Below, piece by piece: positions 1,561 to 20,991 of a stretch of DNA of 21,336 bases. A model generated the notes under the pieces. The model was given only the letters and a program-made list of their open reading frames with translations. It had not been told where the DNA came from and ran no database searches. The position numbers and the translations under genes are program-made. This DNA comes from a virus: the IMG/VR virus record IMGVR_UViG_3300021952_000044, positions 1 to 21,336 of that record, one strand, 5' to 3'. How positions within the stretch are numbered: position 1 is the stretch's first letter; each line of letters begins with the position of its first letter.

Positions 1561-2442
1561 GTGCAAAAACTATCTGAGTCACCGTTTGAAACGGTTAAGG
1601 TTATTGGCGATTTTGAGAACGGATCTGCTGGCTGGCACGAGCTTAGAAATCAACCAGGTGTAATTGGTGGGTCAGATGTTGGCGTTATTCTCGGTCTGTC
1701 ACCTTGGAAAAGCCCTCTCAGCCTTTACCACGAGTCGCTAGGCGCGGTTTCAGGCACGGTCGAACAATCTATGCCGATGAAGATTGGCACAGCCTTAGAA
1801 CCGGCTTTGCTCGCTTTGTTCGAATCTGAGCATCCAGCCCTTGAAGTGTTTACGATTGGCACTTTAGGTCACGTTGAACACGAATGGGCGCATTGCAACG
1901 TCGATGGGTTGTACCGCAACTCGGTCGGCGACTGGGGCATTCTTGAACTCAAGTTTTCTAGCCAGTTCTGGGATAACGAACCGCCAGCGAACTACCGCGC
2001 ACAAGTGATGTATTACTTGCACGTTACAGGGTTGAAGTCTGCGAAGATTGCCGGGCTTGTTGGTTCGCGCTGGGTTGAACACGATATTGAGTATGACGAG
2101 TTCGAAGCGTTGGCTTTATGGGATCAGGTCGTTGCGTTTCGTAACGCGGTTCTCACGGAAACACCGCCAGCGTTTGACGGCTCAGATTCTACCTATCAGA
2201 CGATGCGTGAACTGTACCCGGTTGGTACGGATGCTGAAGAAGAACTTGGCGAGTTGGGCATTAGTTTGTGTAACGCTTATGACGCTTTCAATGCGGCTAA
2301 GGCGCACTATACGGAAATGCAGTCGCGCACGTTGGAAGCTTTGGGCGATAAAAAACACGGCGTTGTTGATGGAATTCGGGTATGCTCTAAACAACAAAAG
2401 GGTGCTGGGTTGCCTTACCTAGCAATGAAGGGAAGAAAATAA
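1561..2442 (+). CDS. YqaJ/lambda-exonuclease-type recombinase nuclease
   Basis: This 293-residue protein belongs to the YqaJ viral recombinase family (PD-(D/E)xK fold), which degrades one strand of duplex DNA from ends to feed strand annealing. Visible landmarks are W25-HELR near the N-terminus and the IGGSDV...LGLSPW signature (about 35-49). The nuclease core follows: E80 (GTALEP), D115 in NVDG, E129-x-K131 in ILELK, and Q148 in YRAQV. The start is GTG, chosen because AAAAGG lies six bases upstream and because it leaves a short divergent gap to whiB. The next gene, an annealing-protein candidate, begins in a TAATG overlap, so the pair resembles a lambda Red exo/beta module. Confidence 0.88.
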   Translation: MQKLSESPFETVKVIGDFENGSAGWHELRNQPGVIGGSDVGVILGLSPWKSPLSLYHESLGAVSGTVEQSMPMKIGTALEPALLALFESEHPALEVFTIGTLGHVEHEWAHCNVDGLYRNSVGDWGILELKFSSQFWDNEPPANYRAQVMYYLHVTGLKSAKIAGLVGSRWVEHDIEYDEFEALALWDQVVAFRNAVLTETPPAFDGSDSTYQTMRELYPVGTDAEEELGELGISLCNAYDAFNAAKAHYTEMQSRTLEALGDKKHGVVDGIRVCSKQQKGAGLPYLAMKGRK

Positions 2443-2969
2443 TGGCAATGTTTGATTTGGCGCAATACGCGACCGTAGCGGAACGTATTCAGGTTCTTTA
2501 CAAAGAGTACCCGGATGCGCGAATTATTACCGAGAACTTGACTACGCTGCAAGATCGTCAGGTTTCAACCTGGGTATTCAAAGCGACCCTCTATTTGACC
2601 GATGCTGATCAGGAACGCGGTTTGCCCAAGGCTACTGGTCACGCTTTCGAAATTGATGGTCAGGGTATGGCCAATAAAACGTCGGCTATGGAGAATGCCG
2701 AGAGTTCGGCCGTGGGAAGATGTTTGGCTTTGGCTGGCTGGTCTGGCAACAAAAAGCAAACCGCGTTGGCTTCTGCTGAAGAAATGCAGAAAGTTGCTCG
2801 CGATGTGACCCCGGTTGCCCCGGCACGACCTTGGCTGCTAGAAGCGGAATCGTTGGCTAAGTCCGGCGATATTGTCGCTTTGCGTAGTCTGTACTCGGAT
2901 GCGGTTCGCCTAAAGGTGAGTGCGCCGATTCTGGAAAAGATTAAAGAGATTGCAACTAACGCCAACTGA
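2442..2969 (+). CDS. Erf/Rad52-like single-strand annealing protein (putative)
   Basis: This 175-residue protein begins with a helix and the pattern VAERIQVLYKEYPDARI. A beta-rich section with WVFKATLYL follows, and then the diagnostic segment TSAMENAESSAVGRCLALAG (about residues 80-100). The last appears in many actinophage proteins annotated as ERF-family or ssDNA-binding recombination proteins. The C-terminal third is helical and variable. Such proteins coat and anneal single strands made by the partner exonuclease, which is encoded immediately upstream with a TAATG junction. I am confident of membership in this phage family from the signature and partner gene; biochemical activity is inferred. 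Confidence 0.7.
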   Translation: MAMFDLAQYATVAERIQVLYKEYPDARIITENLTTLQDRQVSTWVFKATLYLTDADQERGLPKATGHAFEIDGQGMANKTSAMENAESSAVGRCLALAGWSGNKKQTALASAEEMQKVARDVTPVAPARPWLLEAESLAKSGDIVALRSLYSDAVRLKVSAPILEKIKEIATNAN

Positions 2970-5579: not shown

Positions 5580-5939
5580 ATGGCACAAATCACCTTTACA
5601 GGCTTCGTTGAAGACTGGACTAAGGCAACCCCGCAGCACCCGGATTGGGCTATGCGAGTTAGTGAACCGCACCGCAAGAAGGATGGCGAAGCATGGGTCA
5701 CTATTGGCCGCACCTATCGCACCATTAAAGCTGGCTGGGAATCTGGCATCGACTTTAGCCAGTTCAAGAAGGGCGATTTGGTCGAGATTGCTGGCAAGGA
5801 AATCACCGAGTCAAGCGAAAAAGACGGCAAGCGTTACGACAACCTAGTCGTAAAGGCCGATACTGTGACCGTCAAGACTGCGGCGAGCGCTGTCAAGACC
5901 ATTCTTGCACCCGCACCGCTAGACAACCTACCGTTCTAA
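5580..5939 (+). CDS. Putative single-stranded DNA-binding protein
   Basis: This 119-residue, mostly beta-strand protein (ITFTGFVEDW, WAMRVSEPHRKKDGEAWV, FKKGDLVEIAGKEITESSEKDGKRYDNLVVKADTV) has an OB-fold-like rhythm: a strand set, a G-D-V/L-V-x-I-x-G core and a final K-Y-D-N-L-V-V-x-A strand. The last residues read PAPLDNLPF, much like the acidic DDxIPF tip with which bacterial SSB recruits partner proteins. It lies between replication genes and RusA, an expected location for an SSB. It is not a close SSB homologue by eye; the OB-fold call is inference from pattern and tail. Confidence 0.6.
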   Translation: MAQITFTGFVEDWTKATPQHPDWAMRVSEPHRKKDGEAWVTIGRTYRTIKAGWESGIDFSQFKKGDLVEIAGKEITESSEKDGKRYDNLVVKADTVTVKTAASAVKTILAPAPLDNLPF

Positions 5940-6337
5940 TGTTTACGATTACGGTCGAGGGCATTCCCGCAACTCAGGGCAGTAAGACCCTTTACCGTGG
6001 TCGCATGGTCGAAGCTTCAAAGAAACTACCAGCATGGCGTAAGGCGATTATGGTTGCCTGTTATGCCGAGTTGTTGAAACAGGGCAGACCTGATCCGCTG
6101 GATGAGCCGCTCAAGCTCACCGCGTTTATTTTTCTACCTCGCCCGGCTAAACCTAAGTGGGAACGGTTGCCAGCATCAAAACCCGATGTAGATAAATTGG
6201 TTCGCGCAATTTGCGATTCTTTAGTCTTGGCCGAGGTCATCAAAGACGATGCCCTAATCGTCGAGTTGCAGGTTAAAAAGTTGTGGGCTGGCGAGGTTGC
6301 TTCAGGCGCTCAAATCTCGTTAACCAAATCGTTATAA
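5939..6337 (+). CDS. RusA-like Holliday junction resolvase
   Basis: This 132-residue protein shows the RusA layout: N-terminal strand FTITVEGIPATQGSK, a basic region (KKLPAWRK), LTAFIFLPRPAKP, the core KPDVDKLVRAICDSL with D83 and D85, and KDDALI with D103/D104. In E. coli RusA the three essential aspartates (D70, D72, D91) occupy the equivalent places. The enzyme resolves four-way junctions made by replication and recombination, fitting the exonuclease/annealing pair upstream and preparing DNA for packaging. It is coupled to the SSB-like gene by a TAATG overlap. Confidence 0.88.
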   Translation: MFTITVEGIPATQGSKTLYRGRMVEASKKLPAWRKAIMVACYAELLKQGRPDPLDEPLKLTAFIFLPRPAKPKWERLPASKPDVDKLVRAICDSLVLAEVIKDDALIVELQVKKLWAGEVASGAQISLTKSL

Positions 6338-7675: not shown

Positions 7676-7878
7676 TGCTAGATATCACTCAGCAAGCCTT
7701 CAACCAGGCAATTAAAGACGCTTTCGAAGCCGGAGTTGAATCTGGGAAGCGCGAACAGTACGAAATCATGCTTAATGAGCTTGAAAATCTCAATCTGGAG
7801 TACAAACTCAAAAAAGCGCCCGGTTTGGTGTTCGTAGCCATCCGAATTATGACCAAAAGGTTACGCCATGAGTTCTAA
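7675..7878 (+). CDS. Small helical protein, unknown function
   Basis: This 67-residue protein begins in a TAATG overlap with the previous gene. It starts MLDITQQAFNQAIKDAFEAG and stays helical to about residue 45. It then has a hydrophobic segment (LVFVAIRIM) and a basic C-terminus (TKRLRHEF). The A-x-x-x-G-x-x-x-G-K-R-E pattern recalls the A-Y-K-R-G-H-L-K-A segment of the upstream product. No recognised domain. Confidence 0.55.
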   Translation: MLDITQQAFNQAIKDAFEAGVESGKREQYEIMLNELENLNLEYKLKKAPGLVFVAIRIMTKRLRHEF

Positions 7879-8497
7879 AACGTGTTCAATTGACACTTGC
7901 ACCAGTCGCGCTGCCGCTCGCGGCTACTGTACTGCGCATTATCAATCACAACGCAAAAAAGGGCTGCTAGTCAACCGCGAAAAGCCAATTTGTACAGTCG
8001 CCTACTGTGGCCACCCGAATTATGCGCGCGGATTCTGTGCAAACTGCTACCAGTCATATCTGAAAGGCCGAAATCGGCCAGATAAGACCAGTTGCATGGT
8101 TGAACATTGTCCAGGCTTCGTATACCGTGAAAATCATTGTATGCGGCACTACAAAGTGCTATACCCGGCATCGGAAATCAACAAAAGCGACTGCGTAACC
8201 AAAAACTGTACAGAACCCCGTTACCACAAATCAGCAATGTGCAAGAAACATTTCCAAGCACAACAAGCCCTGTTTGCTCGCAAGCGACAGGAGAAAAGGG
8301 AAAAAATGCAAGCAAAACGCCTAGCAGCACAACTAGCAGAAGACGCTAAGCCACGTTGCGTTGAAGACGAATGCAATAAGGCCGCCTGGTCGATGGATCG
8401 CTGCCAGTTGCATTACAACGCATGGAAAACTGCCGCCACTCAGGCAGAAGACTTCTGGTCATTCGTTAAAACCGAGCTGAATTTGGAAAACGCCTAA
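7868..8497 (+). CDS. Protein with five tandem CX4CX9-10CX2[HC] zinc-type motifs
   Basis: This 209-residue protein holds five copies of one motif. The ligand sets are C6/C11/C21/H24, C42/C47/C57/C60, C76/C81/C91/H94, C109/C114/C125/H128 and C164/C169/C179/H182. Each ends in an aromatic residue (Y or F) and most carry a G- or R-rich turn before the third cysteine. The second copy has C in place of the final H. A charged helix (about 137-162, many K, R, E and Q) separates copies four and five. The motif count and spacing strongly imply structural zinc sites; nucleic-acid or protein binding is the natural guess, but no function is known to me. The start overlaps the previous gene by 11 bases with AAAAGG upstream. 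Confidence 0.8.
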   Translation: MSSKTCSIDTCTSRAAARGYCTAHYQSQRKKGLLVNREKPICTVAYCGHPNYARGFCANCYQSYLKGRNRPDKTSCMVEHCPGFVYRENHCMRHYKVLYPASEINKSDCVTKNCTEPRYHKSAMCKKHFQAQQALFARKRQEKREKMQAKRLAAQLAEDAKPRCVEDECNKAAWSMDRCQLHYNAWKTAATQAEDFWSFVKTELNLENA

Positions 8498-8931
8498 TGA
8501 AAATAACCGTTTGGACTTTACCTAACTGCGTGCAATGCCAGCAGACAAAGAAGCAGTTCGATTCAATGGGCATTCGTTATGAAGAAAAAGCGTTAGATTC
8601 TGACCCGTTCAAGGCCGACTATTTCCGGGCTAGGGGTTTGCTTACCGCGCCTATCGTTGAAACCGATGTCAAGCTTTGGGCGGGTTTCCGTTTGGATAAG
8701 ATTCGCAGCCTTGCCGCGCACCTAAAATCTTTGGGCGAGGTGGATAAGGTCGAACCGTATATTGTTATGGAAGCGCCGGGCAAAGAAGCGCGTGAGTTGT
8801 ATCGCAAGGAAGGCGAACAACGCGAGCGCCAACGCATCATCAAGTTGCTAGAAGAAGCAGAATGTCAGGGCGAAGACGACTGGTGCGGAACTATCGGACA
8901 GGCCATTGCTCTTATCAAAGAAGAAAAGTAA
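8497..8931 (+). CDS. NrdH-like glutaredoxin fused to a recurrent C-terminal module
   Basis: In this 144-residue protein, residues 1-76 are an NrdH-type redoxin: ITVWTLPNCVQCQQTKKQF with the C11-V-Q-C14 active site, the cis-proline region TAPIV (about 50) and WAGFRLDKIRSL. NrdH passes electrons to class Ib ribonucleotide reductase, so it may support nucleotide supply, although no reductase gene is in the window. Residues 108-144 are a separate module (ERQRIIKLLEE ... IALIKEEK). The same module ends the next two proteins, which are otherwise unrelated. The gene starts in a TAATG overlap with the zinc-repeat gene. Confidence 0.8.
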   Translation: MKITVWTLPNCVQCQQTKKQFDSMGIRYEEKALDSDPFKADYFRARGLLTAPIVETDVKLWAGFRLDKIRSLAAHLKSLGEVDKVEPYIVMEAPGKEARELYRKEGEQRERQRIIKLLEEAECQGEDDWCGTIGQAIALIKEEK

Positions 8932-9122
8932 TGCCTGAAACGGAATACACGAAGGGATACCGTGCCGGTTATGACTTTGCCCGCGCCGAAACCCAAACGC
9001 GCATCATCGAATTGCTAGATAAAGACTATTGGCATAGTCAACTATTCAATTTCTCAGAAGTAATCTGCCTCGCAGACTGTGAAATGTGTAAAACTATCGC
9101 TCTTATCAAAGGAATGAAATAA
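8931..9122 (+). CDS. Small protein ending in the RII-LLE/IALIKG module
   Basis: This 63-residue protein is read from the ATG in the TAATG junction; an upstream start at 8862 would only read the redoxin gene out of frame. The N-terminus is TEYTKGYRAGYDFARAETQ, then TRIIELLDKD and, after a cysteine-bearing middle (C-LADCEMC), IALIKGMK. Both ends of the module match the tails of the two neighbouring genes. The DNA at the end contains AAAGGA that serves as ribosome site for the next gene. Function unknown. Confidence 0.65.
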   Translation: MPETEYTKGYRAGYDFARAETQTRIIELLDKDYWHSQLFNFSEVICLADCEMCKTIALIKGMK

Positions 9123-9430
9123 TGAAATATCGTTTTGAATGCGCCGAGTGCGGCTACGCCTATAAATCTTTTTGGTATGAGCCAAATTGGATTGCCAGGC
9201 GCTTTTACGAAGCGGATCACATATCGTTTCATCACAACAGTTGGCTAAATGATTACCCTAGTCAATGGAAGCGTTATGGCGCTGAAATCGAACGCGCACG
9301 CATTATCAAGTTGCTTGAAGAATATTTAGCGTTGACTGAGTATTCTGAGCAAGTCGAAGACGCGCAGTCAAATCCGGAATGGACTAACGGCTTTCAGTCG
9401 GCTATTGCGCTTATCAAAGGAGAAAAGTAA
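9122..9430 (+). CDS. Zinc-finger-like protein ending in the RII-LLE/IALIKG module
   Basis: This 102-residue protein has an N-terminal C7-x2-C10 (CAECGYAYK) followed by histidines at ADHISFHHN about 25 residues later, which suggests a zinc ribbon or C2H2-like site. The C-terminal half (ERARIIKLLEEYL ... SAIALIKGEK) is the module shared with the two preceding genes. The final codons contain AAAGGAG, which is placed correctly as Shine-Dalgarno for the next ATG. The start is in a TAATG overlap. Confidence 0.65.
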   Translation: MKYRFECAECGYAYKSFWYEPNWIARRFYEADHISFHHNSWLNDYPSQWKRYGAEIERARIIKLLEEYLALTEYSEQVEDAQSNPEWTNGFQSAIALIKGEK

Positions 9431-9621
9431 TGCCTGAACTTATGGAAGCCGCAGAACTGCTTGATTCGCCGCTTATCTGGTCTGCCGATATGGATCAGAT
9501 ACGTTACCACCTAGCCGGAATACTCAGGGCAATACAAGAAGGGCGCGACCCTGAACCCTATGCCAATGACCTCGCTGAAACACTACTTAACGAGTTTCAT
9601 AACAAAATCGGTATAGGCTAG
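9430..9621 (+). CDS. Small acidic protein of unknown function
   Basis: This 63-residue, acidic, mostly helical protein (MPELMEAAELLDSPLIW, IRYHLAGILRAIQEG, YANDLAETLLNEF) lacks the C-terminal module of the three genes before it. It begins in a TAATG overlap behind a strong AAAGGAG encoded inside the upstream gene, and ends four bases before the next start. No family recognised. Confidence 0.55.
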   Translation: MPELMEAAELLDSPLIWSADMDQIRYHLAGILRAIQEGRDPEPYANDLAETLLNEFHNKIGIG

Positions 9622-9625
9622 AACC

Positions 9626-9856
9626 ATGAGCTTACTCAACGGACTTACGCCACCCCCGCGCGCCTACTCATGCAAAGTGCGAACCATCGCCAGCCAACTC
9701 GAAGAAAAAGATGCCAAGATTCTTATCGACGCAGTAAACAATTCAGAACTATGGCCATCACGCACCCTATGCAACGCGCTCCAAGAACGCGGAATCCAAC
9801 TCAGCGACCTAAGCATTACCCGCCACCGCAAAAAGTTGTGTAGTTGTGCTGGATGA
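9626..9856 (+). CDS. HTH-type small DNA-binding protein (putative)
   Basis: This 76-residue protein has the pattern ASQLEEKDAKILIDAVNNSELWPSRTLCNALQERGIQLSDLSITRHRKKLCSC. That reads as two helices, a short turn and a recognition-like helix ending in basic residues and a C-x-C. Similar small proteins immediately precede a metallophosphoesterase gene in other actinophages and are usually annotated as HTH proteins. Its last 11 bases overlap the GTG start of that gene here. A role in transcription or packaging-site binding is conceivable but not shown. Confidence 0.6.
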   Translation: MSLLNGLTPPPRAYSCKVRTIASQLEEKDAKILIDAVNNSELWPSRTLCNALQERGIQLSDLSITRHRKKLCSCAG

Positions 9857-11024
9857 CCTACACCCGGCAGCCAAAGTAGAAGCACCTAGCGGATGGCGAC
9901 CAGCCGTCGAGTTCGATGGCACAACGGGGGAAGCAACAACACAAGGCATAGAAGGCCAGCCAGATTTTGAAGCATTCCTTCGAGAACGTGGATACGACCC
10001 GGCAGAATACGAAGTTATAGGCAACAGCGTACGCACGTCGCAATGGCAAGTAGCATCACCCTGGCCAGCAGAACCACGCTGGCTAACCTCGTACCGTTTT
10101 CATTTTCGCAAGCGCACCAACGCCGGGATAGACCTACCGCTGCTATACGCTGAAGCTAAACGAGGTATAAAGAAACCCTTACGATTGGTTAGCGACAAAA
10201 ACAATCGTAAGGCGTTAGTAGTAGCCCTAGCAGACTTCCAACTAGGTAAGGTCGACCACCGCGGCGGCAGCAAAGAAACCATCGCCCGCATTCTAGAAAC
10301 CTACGACCGCATAGAAGCACAGTTCAAGGCCGGCAAATACGAGCAGATTATCCTGGCCGATGTAGGCGATATCGTAGAAAACTTTAGCAACGCAGCCAGC
10401 GAGCAACAACAATACTCAAATGACCTATCGCTAATGGATCAAGTAGACGCAGCAACAACCCTAATCTGGGATATCGTCAAACGAGCCAGCCGATACACAG
10501 ACCAAGTAACCTACGCATCGGTAGCATCGAACCATTGCCGATTTAAAATCAACAAACAAAACGTGGGCAACCCTGGTCAAGACGACTGGGGCGTTATGAT
10601 AGCCAAGCAAGTACACCGCCTAGCAACAGAAACCGGGCTACCAGTCAAGGTACTAATCCCTAACCCGCAAGACGAATCACTCGCTTACGACGTATTCAAT
10701 GACGGCTTCCATGTCCTAGGCATATGGCACGGCCACCAATGCGGTTCACCCGATAAGGTCGGCCAATGGTGGAAAGCTCAAGCATTCGGACAACAGCCCG
10801 TTCATGCCGCCACCATAGCACTAACCGGGCATTGGCATCATCTCAGGGTACAAGAACTCGCCCTAAGTTCTAACGGTGGCTCACGCTACTGGGTACAAGC
10901 ACCAACAATGGATGCCGGGTCTAACTGGTATCGTCTAACCTCGGGCGAAGACAGCCAGCCAGGTATAGCAGTATTCGAACTACACGCGGGCAAACACTTC
11001 ACAGGCACAGTACAAAAGCTATAA
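9846..11024 (+). CDS. Calcineurin-like metallophosphoesterase
   Basis: This 392-residue protein shows the metallophosphoesterase metal-ligand series: D130-x-Q132 (LADFQLGK), GD175-x-VE, SN229-H230, H295-G-H297 and GH329-W-H331. The N-terminal 110 residues are a phage-specific extension with LRERGYDPAEYEV. Known members hydrolyse phosphodiesters or phosphomonoesters and resemble the nuclease Mre11/SbcD in fold; which substrate applies here is unknown. The GTG start is used because it couples to the preceding gene. It closes the block before the packaging genes, with only a structured gap and two small zinc proteins between it and the terminase. Confidence 0.82.
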   Translation: MLDDLHPAAKVEAPSGWRPAVEFDGTTGEATTQGIEGQPDFEAFLRERGYDPAEYEVIGNSVRTSQWQVASPWPAEPRWLTSYRFHFRKRTNAGIDLPLLYAEAKRGIKKPLRLVSDKNNRKALVVALADFQLGKVDHRGGSKETIARILETYDRIEAQFKAGKYEQIILADVGDIVENFSNAASEQQQYSNDLSLMDQVDAATTLIWDIVKRASRYTDQVTYASVASNHCRFKINKQNVGNPGQDDWGVMIAKQVHRLATETGLPVKVLIPNPQDESLAYDVFNDGFHVLGIWHGHQCGSPDKVGQWWKAQAFGQQPVHAATIALTGHWHHLRVQELALSSNGGSRYWVQAPTMDAGSNWYRLTSGEDSQPGIAVFELHAGKHFTGTVQKL

Positions 11025-15257: not shown

Positions 15258-15523
15258 TGAGCGCTATCTCTAACGGTACTTTGTTTGTTGGTACTAGCCC
15301 TGTACAAATCGATGGCAATTCTAACGGCTGGTCGCATATCCACATTCGCAATAATGACACGACTAAAACTTTGTACATCGGTAATAGCGCTTTGACTACT
15401 GCTAACGGTTTGGCATTGGATAAGTTGGCAACTATCGATTTCGATATCCCGCCTGGCATTTCTTTCAACATGGTTACCGATGCTGGCACTTGTTCTGTTT
15501 CATGGCTAAGGATTGACCACTAA
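15257..15523 (+). CDS. Small beta-rich structural-like protein
   Basis: This 88-residue protein is almost wholly beta-strand by pattern (GTLFVGTSPVQIDG, SHIHIRNNDTTKTLYIGN, IDFDIPPGISFNMVTD, CSVSWLRI) with no helix or membrane segment. It sits between portal and protease, coupled by TAATG on both sides. Small beta proteins at this place in HK97-type head operons can be decoration, stopper or head fibre proteins. No specific family is recognised, so I call it only a likely virion protein. Confidence 0.55.
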   Translation: MSAISNGTLFVGTSPVQIDGNSNGWSHIHIRNNDTTKTLYIGNSALTTANGLALDKLATIDFDIPPGISFNMVTDAGTCSVSWLRIDH

Positions 15524-17535
15524 TGCCTTACTACATTTCAGATAAGCAAGCGGATTGCAAAGGCTGGGCTGTTATCAAGCTCGAAGATAACAAGCCTGTA
15601 ACTGTTGCGTGTCACGAAACTAAGCAAGATGCAACAGACCAAATGATTGCTGTTTCTATGGCTGAAGGTCTACGCCCGATGGGGCAATTCTTTGCAGGTA
15701 CTTCTGGCGAAGGTCGCGACGGTGGCGACGGTAACAACCAGGTACTTATTTGCGATATCGACGATACCCTGATTCACAACGGTATGTTAATTGCCGATAC
15801 CGCCGATTTTGTTGCGCAACAAAACGTTGGCATCATGCTAGTTACCGGCCGCTTAGAAGCAGACCGTGCGCAGACTGTCGCGCAATTGGCTAAACTAGGA
15901 ATGGATTACGATCATCTTTACATGAACAACCTCGGTAGTTCTGCAAAGTCGATTGAATTCAAAAAGAATACTGCACAAGAACTACTCAAGAATTACGATG
16001 TGACTCTTGCGATTGATAACGATGGCGGTGCGCGCGCGGCTTATGCGTCGCTGGGCATTCCCGTCATTGACCCGACCCGACTACCTGTAAAGCGTGAAAT
16101 GAATCCAGCAGACCAGTATCCAGCCGTAGACGACAGCACTACCCTTAATGGCGTGGCGGTCTTGCCATGCACCAAAGAAGACTTAGCACTACGCCTAAAG
16201 GACTTGCTCGGCGATACCGTTAATTTCAAGTTCCTTGCTCACGGCTTCCATTGGAACGTACGCGGTGTTAACTTCGCGCAGTACCACGAATTTTTTGGTG
16301 AAATTTACACCGATGCAAATGATGCTATTGACCCGATTGCGGAGAACATTCGCAAACTCAATTTCGATGCCCCTATCAAGCTGAGCGATTACCTAGAGTC
16401 TGTCGATGAAATCGAACCTACCGATTCAAGCGATCCGCTAGAGATGTGCCGTTCTTTGTACATGGCTAACGAGGATGTTTTGGAATCTGTCGTTCACGCT
16501 TTGCAGATTGCCAACGAACTTGATGAGCAGGGTATTGTTAATTTCCTAGCCGAGCGCCAGGATGCTCACGCTAAAAACCAATGGCAACTGCGCGCTATCG
16601 TCGGCGATTCTTTTGCCAAGAACTACCAGGTCGATGTTCACGCTGTGGCAGAAGGTCAGACTGGCGAAGGCAATGAAAAGCCAGCCGAGATTGATACCAC
16701 CCCGGCTAACGCCACCCCTAACGTAAACGTAAACGCCGATGGTACGCCTATGGTGCAGATGAACTCAACCGCTACCAAGTGGGCTAAGGCGGCCGAGATG
16801 ATTGTTCGCAAGCTCGAGCCTGTTCAAGAAGTGCCATTGTCTGAAGAACGCGGTTCAAAAATTGAAACCCGCGTGAACCATGTCGACGTAGAACTACGCG
16901 CGACTAGTGCAGACGGTATGACTTTCGAAGGTTATGCCAGCGTATTCAACAGCCCTTCAGAACCTATCGGTGGCAAGTTCACCGAGTATGTTGCACCGGG
17001 CGCTTTCAAGCGTTCACTTGCCGCGCGTAACGATGTAAAACTTTTGTGGAATCACGACACCGGGCAAGTACTTGGTTCTACCCGTGCTGGCACTTTGCAG
17101 TTGGTCGAAGACGCTCACGGTCTAAAGGCGATTGCTACTTTGCCAGATACGCAACTTGGCCGCGATGCTGCAACTCTTATCAAGCGTGGCGATGTCGCTA
17201 ACATGAGTTTTGGTTTTAGCGTTCCGGCAGGTGGCGATGCTTGGTCTAGCGATGGTCAGACTCGCACTCTAAACAGCGTTCGTTTGCACGAAGTGAGCAT
17301 CGTTGCTTTTCCGGCCTACCAGGCAAGCACCGCTAACGTACGCGCAGAAGTTCGTTCACTAGACGCAGACCTTCTAACCGATGGTCTAACCAAGTTGGAG
17401 AACGGCGAAGACCTGACCCCGGCAGAAGCAGAAGCGTTAACTGGCGTAGTTGCTAAACTAACTAAGACGGAAAAAGTCGAACAGTCTTTGGATCTCCTAA
17501 AGGCTAAACTCACCCTTCAAGCAAAGGCTATCTAA
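15523..17535 (+). CDS. Fusion: HAD phosphatase-like / Dps-like ferritin / HK97 prohead protease
   Basis: This is a single 670-residue frame with AAGGA before the ATG. Residues 1-50 are a small cap (GWAVIKL, ACHETKQDATDQ) common in phage head proteins. Residues 72-185 are HAD-like: DID80-D-T82, VTGR (T108) and AIDND (165-167). Residues 215-365 resemble Dps: H243 and H255 in HWNVRGVNFAQYH, then D270-x3-E274. The 12-, 15- and 4-residue spacing matches Dps ferroxidase ligands (H31, H43, D58, E62 in Listeria Dps); the D47 equivalent is G259, with E260 beside it. A linker follows (about 366-450). Residues 455-605 are the HK97 protease: EGYASVFN, LLWNH511, NMS562FGF and LHEVSIVAFPAY. The helical remainder may act as scaffold. 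HK97-type proteases are usually near 200 residues. Confidence 0.85.
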   Translation: MPYYISDKQADCKGWAVIKLEDNKPVTVACHETKQDATDQMIAVSMAEGLRPMGQFFAGTSGEGRDGGDGNNQVLICDIDDTLIHNGMLIADTADFVAQQNVGIMLVTGRLEADRAQTVAQLAKLGMDYDHLYMNNLGSSAKSIEFKKNTAQELLKNYDVTLAIDNDGGARAAYASLGIPVIDPTRLPVKREMNPADQYPAVDDSTTLNGVAVLPCTKEDLALRLKDLLGDTVNFKFLAHGFHWNVRGVNFAQYHEFFGEIYTDANDAIDPIAENIRKLNFDAPIKLSDYLESVDEIEPTDSSDPLEMCRSLYMANEDVLESVVHALQIANELDEQGIVNFLAERQDAHAKNQWQLRAIVGDSFAKNYQVDVHAVAEGQTGEGNEKPAEIDTTPANATPNVNVNADGTPMVQMNSTATKWAKAAEMIVRKLEPVQEVPLSEERGSKIETRVNHVDVELRATSADGMTFEGYASVFNSPSEPIGGKFTEYVAPGAFKRSLAARNDVKLLWNHDTGQVLGSTRAGTLQLVEDAHGLKAIATLPDTQLGRDAATLIKRGDVANMSFGFSVPAGGDAWSSDGQTRTLNSVRLHEVSIVAFPAYQASTANVRAEVRSLDADLLTDGLTKLENGEDLTPAEAEALTGVVAKLTKTEKVEQSLDLLKAKLTLQAKAI

Positions 17536-19177: not shown

Positions 19178-20347
19178 ATGGCAAAAGGTACAATCTCTTG
19201 GTTTTCTAATTCTCCAGAAGCAACTACTGGTTATGGTCAACAGACTAACCAGGTTGTGAAGCGTTTGAAGCGTGACGGGTACGATGTTGCAATCCTTAGC
19301 AACTATGGTCGCGAGGGTTCTATCGGCGATTGGGATTCTGGCGAAGGTTTGGTTCGTGAGTATCCTAAGGGTGCGCAAGCCTATTCGCAGGATGTGACCC
19401 CGTTGAATCATGCGCATTGGTCTGCGGAACATCCAGGCCAGCCAAATGTTTTGATTACTCTTTACGATGCTTGGATTCTCGAGGGTCGCAAGTATGACGA
19501 AATGAATATTGCGTCTTGGATTCCTGTGGATCATTATCCTTGCCCGCCTAAGGTTTTGGCGTGGGCTGCTAAGGATTCTGTGACCCCTATTGCTATGAGC
19601 CGGTTTGGGCAGAAGGCTATGCAGGATGCGGGCGTTGAAGCCGAGTATGTGCCGCACGCTATCGAACCTGTGTTCACGCCTACGCCTATGATTAATGGCA
19701 TGACTGGCCGTGAGTATCTTGGCCTTGCCGAAGATGATTTCATCGTTGGCATTTTTGCCGCCAACAAGGCTAATGGTTTGGTTCACCGTAAGGCGTTGGC
19801 CGAGAACATTTTGGCGTTTGGTATTTTCGCTAAGGATAAGCCGAATGCAAAACTGTATTTGCATATGGATATGTTTGGCGTGTTTGGTGGATGGAATATT
19901 CCTGATTTGCTTGAAGCTTGCGGGCTAACTCACGACCAGGTTGTTCTTGTAGACCAGGTTGCATACCGTTACGGTTTGGGGCAAGATGTGCTTGCTGGCT
20001 TGTACACGGCTTGTGATGTTTATCTAGGTACTTCGCTTGGTGAAGGTTTTGGCATTCACACTATCGAGGCGCAAGCTTGTGGCACGCCTGTTATTGTTTC
20101 TAACTTTGCTGCGTCAAAGGAACTTGTTGGCGATGGCTGGCTTGTTGATGGGCAGCCGTTGTGGGATCATCACCAAAAGTCTTGGTTCAATGTGCCATCT
20201 ATTCCAGGTATTGTTGATGCTTTGCAGAATGCCTTTGCGCGCCCGCGTGAGCGTTCTCAGAAGGCGTTGGACTTCGCTGCCGAGTACGGCGCGGATGTTG
20301 TCTATGAAACCTACTGGAAGCCGCTGCTAGCAAAGTTGCTTAAGTGA
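19178..20347 (+). CDS. GT4-type (GT-B fold) glycosyltransferase
   Basis: In this 389-residue protein, the N-terminal domain begins ISWFSNSPEATTGYGQQT, typical of acceptor-binding Rossmann domains with the glycine-rich first loop. The C-terminal donor domain has VGIFAANKANGLVHRK (about 189-205). It also has the GT4 signature GEGFGIHTIEAQACGTPVI at 288-306, with E289 and E297 in the E-x7-E position. It would transfer a sugar from a nucleotide donor to protein, DNA base or glycan. It is the first of three sugar/polyol genes downstream of the capsid; AAAGGG precedes the ATG. The target is unknown. Confidence 0.85.
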   Translation: MAKGTISWFSNSPEATTGYGQQTNQVVKRLKRDGYDVAILSNYGREGSIGDWDSGEGLVREYPKGAQAYSQDVTPLNHAHWSAEHPGQPNVLITLYDAWILEGRKYDEMNIASWIPVDHYPCPPKVLAWAAKDSVTPIAMSRFGQKAMQDAGVEAEYVPHAIEPVFTPTPMINGMTGREYLGLAEDDFIVGIFAANKANGLVHRKALAENILAFGIFAKDKPNAKLYLHMDMFGVFGGWNIPDLLEACGLTHDQVVLVDQVAYRYGLGQDVLAGLYTACDVYLGTSLGEGFGIHTIEAQACGTPVIVSNFAASKELVGDGWLVDGQPLWDHHQKSWFNVPSIPGIVDALQNAFARPRERSQKALDFAAEYGADVVYETYWKPLLAKLLK

Positions 20348-20991
20348 TTCCTGTTGTTGGTTTCGCTACGCTGAAACGGTTTGACCTTGCAGACCGTTTA
20401 CTTGCTTCGATTGATTACCCGGTTGAGAATCTGGTTATTGTTGACAACTCGGGGCTTGGGGATTGGAATCCTGAGAAGCCTGTTTGGGTTGTCAATATGT
20501 GGATTATCCGTGTACCGTTTGGGCTGGGTTTAACAGGCGCTTGGAATCTCATTGTCAAGTCAACACCCTATGCCCCGTATTGGGTTCTTATTAATGACGA
20601 TGCTTGGTTTGCTCCTGGGTCGCTCAAGCTCATTGAAGAAAACGTTGATACCGAGGCTTTGAACTTTGCGTTGATAGAACCTAAATGGTCTGCCCCTATT
20701 TTCGGCGAAGGCATGGTTCGTGAAGTTGGTCTTTATGATGAGCGCTTTTATCCGTTGTATTACGACGATAACGATCTTGAACGTCGCGTGAATTATCACG
20801 GCGTAAGAACGCATTACATTCCCGCGGTGATTCATCACGAAAACAGTTCGACACTTGCCAGCGGTTTCAATAAGGTAAATGAAAAATCTTTCGCGGCTAA
20901 TAGTTTTCTTCATTCGAAGAAGGTTGCCGAGGATGATTACACAGAGGGCAATTGGTCGCTAGATATTAGAAGGGCTAACCGATGGGATTGA
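20344..20991 (+). CDS. GT2-like (GT-A fold) glycosyltransferase
   Basis: This 215-residue protein starts at a GTG overlapping the end of the previous gene by 4 bases. It shows the GT-A pattern: N-terminal strand PVVGFATLKR, VIVDNSG (D34-N35) for nucleotide binding, GLTGAWN, and LINDDAWF with N84-D85-D86 as the metal-binding DxD-like motif. YDDNDLERR near residue 140 gives the catalytic ED-like pair. It is short for a GT2 enzyme but complete. It probably works with the GT4 neighbour on one glycan. Acceptor unknown. Confidence 0.75.
   Translation: MIPVVGFATLKRFDLADRLLASIDYPVENLVIVDNSGLGDWNPEKPVWVVNMWIIRVPFGLGLTGAWNLIVKSTPYAPYWVLINDDAWFAPGSLKLIEENVDTEALNFALIEPKWSAPIFGEGMVREVGLYDERFYPLYYDDNDLERRVNYHGVRTHYIPAVIHHENSSTLASGFNKVNEKSFAANSFLHSKKVAEDDYTEGNWSLDIRRANRWD

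Follow-up and report, generated by a model that had tools for sequence, protein, structure and literature searches.

Apparent assembly of small genes from exchangeable front and back pieces, joined at two DNA seams, in many uncultured bacterial viruses

The mosaicism of phage genomes is an old question, and short conserved boundary sequences at module edges have been proposed for it (PMC3029335). Most mosaic joints lack such sequences, and illegitimate recombination is therefore usually invoked (PMC3029335). Cluster K mycobacteriophages carry start-associated sequences (SAS), in which a repeated AGGAG-bearing sequence stands before the starts of many unrelated genes; approximately half of the SAS have 17-bp imperfect inverted repeats (PMC3203893). 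Rad52-like phage recombinases form mosaics at short, diverged homology and recombine such homology in vivo, with the minimum for Red-beta quoted as 30 bp (PMC3945230). At the protein level, fragments are shuffled between phage proteins, including tail fibres, endolysins and replication proteins (PMC10684548).

The DNA analysed here, hereafter the window, comprises the 21,336 bases of one IMG/VR virus record. Three of its consecutive genes are probably mosaic mini-genes of a hypervariable accessory locus, with parts joined at two coding seams (A and B) by annealing recombination and with an additional role for the seams in the proteins themselves. In contact-dependent inhibition toxins, variable C-termini are exchanged at a conserved peptide border; in the genes described here, variation extends to both sides of the border and the encoded proteins are tiny. 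The seams resemble boundary sequences in being short conserved stretches at module edges suited to homologous exchange, as is evident from their identity profiles (discussed below), but one of them is intracoding, both are found repeatedly, on many unrelated genes and across at least three groups of phages defined by gene content, and the flanking parts assort freely. Like SAS, seam B repeats a ribosome-site motif directly before unrelated genes (138 of 150 here), but it also encodes the end of the upstream gene and is joined to the internal seam A. Relaxed recombination by Rad52-like proteins is our proposed engine; in that system gene blocks are exchanged at any homology, whereas in this locus a recurrent, conserved seam provides the homology. 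Domain exchange between phage proteins is likewise common to this locus and to fragment shuffling, although the latter study covers core proteins and its text does not contain the terms "short homolog", "conserved sequence" or "linker" (PMC10684548).

The first of the three genes, P0001 (positions 8497..8931, plus strand), encodes a 144-aa protein consisting of an NrdH/glutaredoxin-like domain (residues 1-81) and a seam unit. It matches the Pfam family Glutaredoxin (PF00462; E=1.6e-7, 31.8 bits against a curated cut-off of 22.9) and phrog_22 (3.7e-13), and its CxxC motif is CVQC. P0002 (8931..9122, plus strand) encodes a 63-aa protein with the N-terminal part (N-part) MPETEYTKGYRAG, and P0003 (9122..9430, plus strand) a 102-aa protein with a zinc-finger-like N-part (CxxC...HxxxH); Pfam searches with these two proteins gave no match. 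Homologues of the P0002 N-part occur in loci L301 and L304, where they are joined to another loop. The N-part of P0003 is homologous to those of L079 (which has the CxxC...HxxxH motif in common with it) and L081, and the loops of both differ from that of P0003. Directly upstream of the glutaredoxin gene (7868-8497) is a 209-aa protein with several Cys/His-rich repeats (C..x..RGYC..HY) that is probably a multi-zinc-finger protein.

The three genes are adjacent, and their joints are TAATG overlaps. Their tails are ERQRIIKLLE-17 aa-IALIKEEK (P0001), TQTRIIELLD-25 aa-IALIKGMK (P0002) and ERARIIKLLE-28 aa-IALIKGEK (P0003), which align as [ET][RQ]xRII[KE]LL[ED], a spacer of 17, 25 or 28 residues, and IALIK[GE]xK. 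The initial annotation had recorded these shared ends on a redoxin, a 63-residue protein and a zinc-finger-like protein, and both the open reading frames and the alignment agree with it. On the plus strand, seam A lies at 8824..8853 in P0001, 8991..9020 in P0002 and 9290..9319 in P0003, and the corresponding copies of seam B, each ending in a TAATG junction, lie at 8905..8933, 9096..9124 and 9404..9432. Ribosome-site-like motifs had also been read in the tail codons: AAAGAAG (8917-8923), AAAGGA (9108-9113) and AAAGGAG (9416-9422) are indeed found there, 7-8 nt upstream of the ATG in each junction. Since the N-parts are unrelated, the three genes are not full-length duplicates, the outcome that the annotation had named as contrary to its reading.

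The shared tail is far beyond chance, and it is wider than first noted. A 24-nt IALIKGEK pattern, in which every synonymous codon was allowed and nothing was demanded downstream, was found in 41 viral stretches, mostly at the end of an open reading frame and followed by TAAATG, TAATG or TGA. A fully degenerate DNA pattern for ERERII[KE]LLE, permitting all synonymous codons, was found in 98 viral stretches, nearly all of which reach an IALIKGE(N)K-like tail after 20-65 codons. The profile search suggested at the outset did recover further fusions: after two further scans, the tail HMM matches 276 ORFs in 190 loci of IMG/VR viral contigs. At 16 bits, position-specific matrices for the two seams give 188 and 195 matches in the viral loci and none in the reversed sequence. 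All 48 viral records searched whole, which were picked for holding the motif, are matched, usually 1-5 times each and for the most part in clusters.

The module contigs are all metagenomic assemblies. When cultured phages were searched with the DNA of the locus, two tails and the two seam sequences, nothing above chance emerged, a weak test given the short queries, and a 14-kb stretch of Pontimonas phage phiPsal1 has no module. Among bacterial genome contigs, the degenerate IALIKGEK pattern was found in 93 stretches, 9 of them near a C-terminus and none with RIIKLL; no tail was found in 296 genomes of one bacterial class, in a search that had no positive control. Viral contigs searched on the basis of P0001 returned no match, and none of the papers listed in a search of open-licence literature has the motif letters in a relevant sense.

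Seam A is 30 nt in length, with the consensus GAGCGTGAACGCATTATCAAACTGCTAGAA and the peptide ERERIIKLLE, and is located 20-60 codons inside the gene rather than between genes. Seam B is 24-30 nt in length, with the consensus ATYGCTCTTATCAARGGAGAGAAC; its peptide is either IALIKGEN followed by AAR-TGA or IALIKGEK followed by TAA-ATG. It thus serves at once as gene end, ribosome site and junction with the start of the following gene and, as it encodes the end of the upstream gene, it is not an intergenic sequence. A single constant module of 35-50 residues, as originally proposed, was dropped since the middle of the module is exchanged: the constant elements are two short seams flanking a freely exchanged loop. 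Seam B also ends genes that have no seam A, and the genes that it ends are unrelated (a helicase, a 33-aa small protein and a glutaredoxin). In a set of 150 genes, a ribosome-site-like motif is present at the end of 138 and an NTGA start overlap at the end of 109. Loci L003, L014, L015, L026, L030, L038 and L009 encode a 33-34 aa hydrophobic protein (MPE[FI]L.GICIG...IA[LF]IKGE) that is little beyond one possible membrane helix and seam B.

Assortment of the parts was assessed in 150 non-redundant genes from 125 loci. Homologous N-parts are found in 53 gene pairs, 48 of which have plainly unrelated loops; homologous loops are found in 46 pairs, 41 of which have plainly unrelated N-parts; and both parts are homologous in 5 pairs. 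The cut-offs for similar and unrelated were alignment scores of our own choosing (55 and 50; 28 and 25), and stricter ones give the same picture. The control consisted of other small ORFs from these contigs that have homologues on different contigs, and it was split 45 residues from the end rather than at a seam; of its N-similar pairs, 80% are similar at the C-terminus as well and 5% have unrelated ends.

DNA identity changes at the seams, which identifies both of them as joints. In pairs with the same N-part, identity is 0.5-0.7 upstream of seam A and 0.76-0.92 across it, and falls to chance (0.27) within approximately 6 nt after it. In pairs with the same loop, identity starts at chance immediately ahead of seam A, rises to 0.81-0.89 within it, is 0.6-0.75 in the loop and up to 0.92 in seam B, and declines toward chance past the stop codon; the downstream gene differs in 15 of the 18 comparable pairs. 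The exact run that two mosaic partners share across a seam is short, with a median of 15 nt.

In the window, a unit of this kind is inserted in the glutaredoxin gene. In L301 and L304, the end of the glutaredoxin gene overlaps (TAATG) a gene whose product begins MDTEYTKGF. Both neighbours of this junction are also present in the window, with 186 nt (62 codons; 8740..8925, plus strand, relative to L304) separating two codons, GAG and AAG, at the end of the glutaredoxin gene: L304 reads ..GGGGAGAAGTAATGGATACCGAATACACAAAAGG and the window reads ..GGCGAG-[186 nt]-AAGTAATGCCTGAAACGGAATACACGAAGG, or Grx-GAG-AAG-TAATG-DTEYTKG versus Grx-GAG-[186 nt]-AAG-TAATG-PETEYTKG. The insertion brings RELYRKEG, seam A, a loop, seam B and the ribosome site; its product is a fused protein, and the original stop/start junction is retained. 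The tail is absent from all 26 glutaredoxin homologues in other loci, so that 1 of 27 related glutaredoxins carries it, and it is therefore not needed for glutaredoxin function. Between L065 and L301, DNA identity is 80% for the glutaredoxin and 99% for the loop, and the N-parts are unrelated. The proposal of a mobile gene-end cassette with its own translation-coupling site is largely supported, in that seam B is a gene end with a ribosome site, is found on unrelated genes and arrives with the 62-codon insertion; it does not hold for what moves, as the mobile parts are the N-part and the loop between the seams, which assort independently. The RELYRKEG segment (8791..8814, plus strand) recurs as well, as a third piece immediately upstream of seam A, and the pattern RE[FYL]YR[RK]QG, present at this position and in L111, L122, L242 and others (12 of 150 genes), is a possible third seam.

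By the marker genes in the locus fragments, three groups can be told apart: one with RusA, YqaJ and replication genes (58 loci, the window among them), one with a DEAD helicase and a Cas4-like exonuclease (10 loci), and one marked by ThyX, Hsp20 and a DNA-binding protein (24 loci). There is almost no mixing of these groups, and 31 loci are left unassigned, many of the loci being fragments. N-part or loop similarities link loci across groups in 17 cases. In the window's group, the right boundary of the variable locus is an exonuclease/metallophosphoesterase-like gene (9846..11024, plus strand; phrog_284, 4.4e-58, and synteny). Module genes lie between the glutaredoxin gene and this gene in 6 of the 9 loci with both markers on one strand, and the hypervariable locus thus has a recurrent place in this group. 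By terminase, the nearest phage is Pontimonas phage phiPsal1 (56% identity). The window also encodes, on the minus strand among plus-strand genes, a WhiB-like protein (1184-1582; PF02467, 6.5e-16) whose family is also found in 24 contigs. Together with the closest terminase being that of an actinobacterial phage, this points to actinobacterial hosts.

Elsewhere in the window, a 670-aa ORF (15523-17532) is an unusual three-part fusion of a polynucleotide-kinase/phosphatase-like part, a match to a phage DNA-binding family (which looks Dps/ferritin-like) and an HK97-type head maturation protease. Two adjacent glycosyltransferase-like ORFs, as judged by eye from the translation, are located 3' of the head genes (19178-20991).

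The seams show excess similarity at the DNA level. At positions with the same amino acid in unrelated genes, obtained with codon-neutral patterns, codon identity reaches 0.59 for seam A and 0.62 for IALI (the part of seam B that precedes the ribosome site), compared to 0.22-0.45 in ten other families of the same contigs. The first Arg of seam A is CGT in 79% of cases (27% in the background) and the second is CGC in 87% (23%), the two Leu codons are position-specific (CTG, then CTA), and the Gly of seam B is GGA in 93% (16%). Homogenisation of seam A within contigs is weak (0.66, versus 0.59 on average after shuffling; 0.66 was attained in 13 of 500 shuffles), and that of seam B is not above shuffled labels.

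Seam A is also under clear constraint at the protein level, and both levels act. Its pairwise identity at codon positions 1/2/3 is 0.84/0.95/0.60 (0.76/0.90/0.54 in loci found by IALIKGEK only), and all 197 matches are in the ERERII frame; part of the persistence of seam A therefore needs no recombination argument. An AF2 model of P0002 is a helix-loop-helix (helices at residues 5-30 and 51-59; mean pLDDT 73, moderate confidence) that fits a hairpin built of the two seam peptides, and a Foldseek search with this model did not find a PDB match. A C-x(1-4)-C pattern occurs in the loop of 44 of the 150 genes, and some loops may therefore bind zinc. Taken with the model, the constraint suggests that the seam peptides have a role in the protein, most likely as a small helical hairpin cap. 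These same observations (the codon-position identities, the single frame and the modelled hairpin) would suit a C-terminal docking tag or folding cap for many phage proteins, spread by ordinary domain shuffling, with the DNA similarity reflecting recent spread and codon habits. We nevertheless find this account unlikely: the loop and the N-part are both freely exchanged, so that only the seams could be a common surface, seam B is found without seam A, synonymous-site likeness is above that of the ten control families, the breakpoints track the seam edges, and the tail, borne by one of 27 related glutaredoxins, is not needed for their function.

If conservation instead arose purely from translation coupling, because the gene end must hold a ribosome site, recombination would be incidental. 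The AAAGGAG-type site at most gene ends, the frequent start overlap and the GGA codon of seam B are all in keeping with this, but it would account for the last 10-15 nt only, and not for IALI, which precedes the site, for seam A, another 60-130 nt upstream, or for the breakpoints; as a full explanation it is very improbable. We also considered that the seams pair with each other in the mRNA or bind a dedicated site-specific recombinase, for which the short inverted repeat GCGT-GA-ACGC in the seam A consensus might speak. Pairing of the real seams is found in 17 of 106 cases versus 22-29 when synonymously recoded, and is thus rarer; the repeat is perfect in 43 of 106 cases, and its two arms do not clearly covary beyond what independence would give; and a scan confined to the seam consensus sequences found no inverted repeat longer than 4 bp within them. 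Both mRNA pairing and a palindromic recombinase site were thus tested and found unsupported, and we give this explanation hardly any credence. Finally, as the module contigs are all metagenomic, assemblers could in principle have joined different genes at short repeats. The exact runs shared by mosaic partners are too short for usual k-mer joins (33 nt is reached by 5 of 102 pairs), and 23 junctions recur in at least two viral records, most from different metagenomes by contig name, making assembly chimeras an extremely remote explanation.

For annealing at the seams, which is the most economical model, candidate machinery is encoded in the window. A YqaJ/RecE-like recombination exonuclease (1561..2442, plus strand; PF09588, 2.6e-18, 67.2 bits against a cut-off of 22; phrog_434, 9.6e-60) is directly followed by a predicted single-strand annealing protein with a putative Rad52-like fold (2442..2969, plus strand; AF2 pLDDT 82.8). 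The best structural matches of the latter model are RAD52 (Z 8.9), Mgm101 (Z 7.8) and 80alpha Sak (Z 6.5); its Foldseek E value is weak (0.02 at best) and a Pfam search gave no match. A RusA Holliday-junction resolvase is encoded at 5939..6337 (plus strand; PF05866, 1.9e-11; phrog_140, 9.9e-21). Among the families of related contigs, one is a Cas4-like exonuclease and another a Sak4-like annealing protein, and exonuclease and annealing-protein families are present in two of the phage groups; a search of the third group did not identify a recombinase. Small genes would be assembled from an N-part, a loop and a following gene, with joining at seam A (inside the gene) and seam B (at the gene end). 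The engine would most likely be homology-dependent annealing by the phage's RecE-like exonuclease and the adjacent Rad52-like protein. Seam A, at 30 nt, may be set against the 30 bp quoted for Red-beta; the median exact identity across the seams falls short of what classical homologous recombination needs, barring a machinery tolerant of mismatches. As both seams preserve the frame and seam B supplies a ribosome site, any exchange at the seams yields a gene that is in frame and can be expected to be translated.

The seams may be kept as recombination joints, allowing combinatorial gene assembly from N-parts and loops drawn from a pool shared across unrelated phage lineages; we advance this tentatively, as a real possibility somewhat short of an even chance. 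If it is true, each product would be in frame and provide a ribosome site for its neighbour, giving a cassette system without a dedicated integrase or attachment site. With 150 non-redundant genes sharing two joints and assorting freely, the homology model of phage mosaicism can make testable predictions. The two halves of such a mini-gene differ in ancestry, which would suggest why these genes look like ORFans, and the locus suggests how phages can quickly generate many small accessory proteins.
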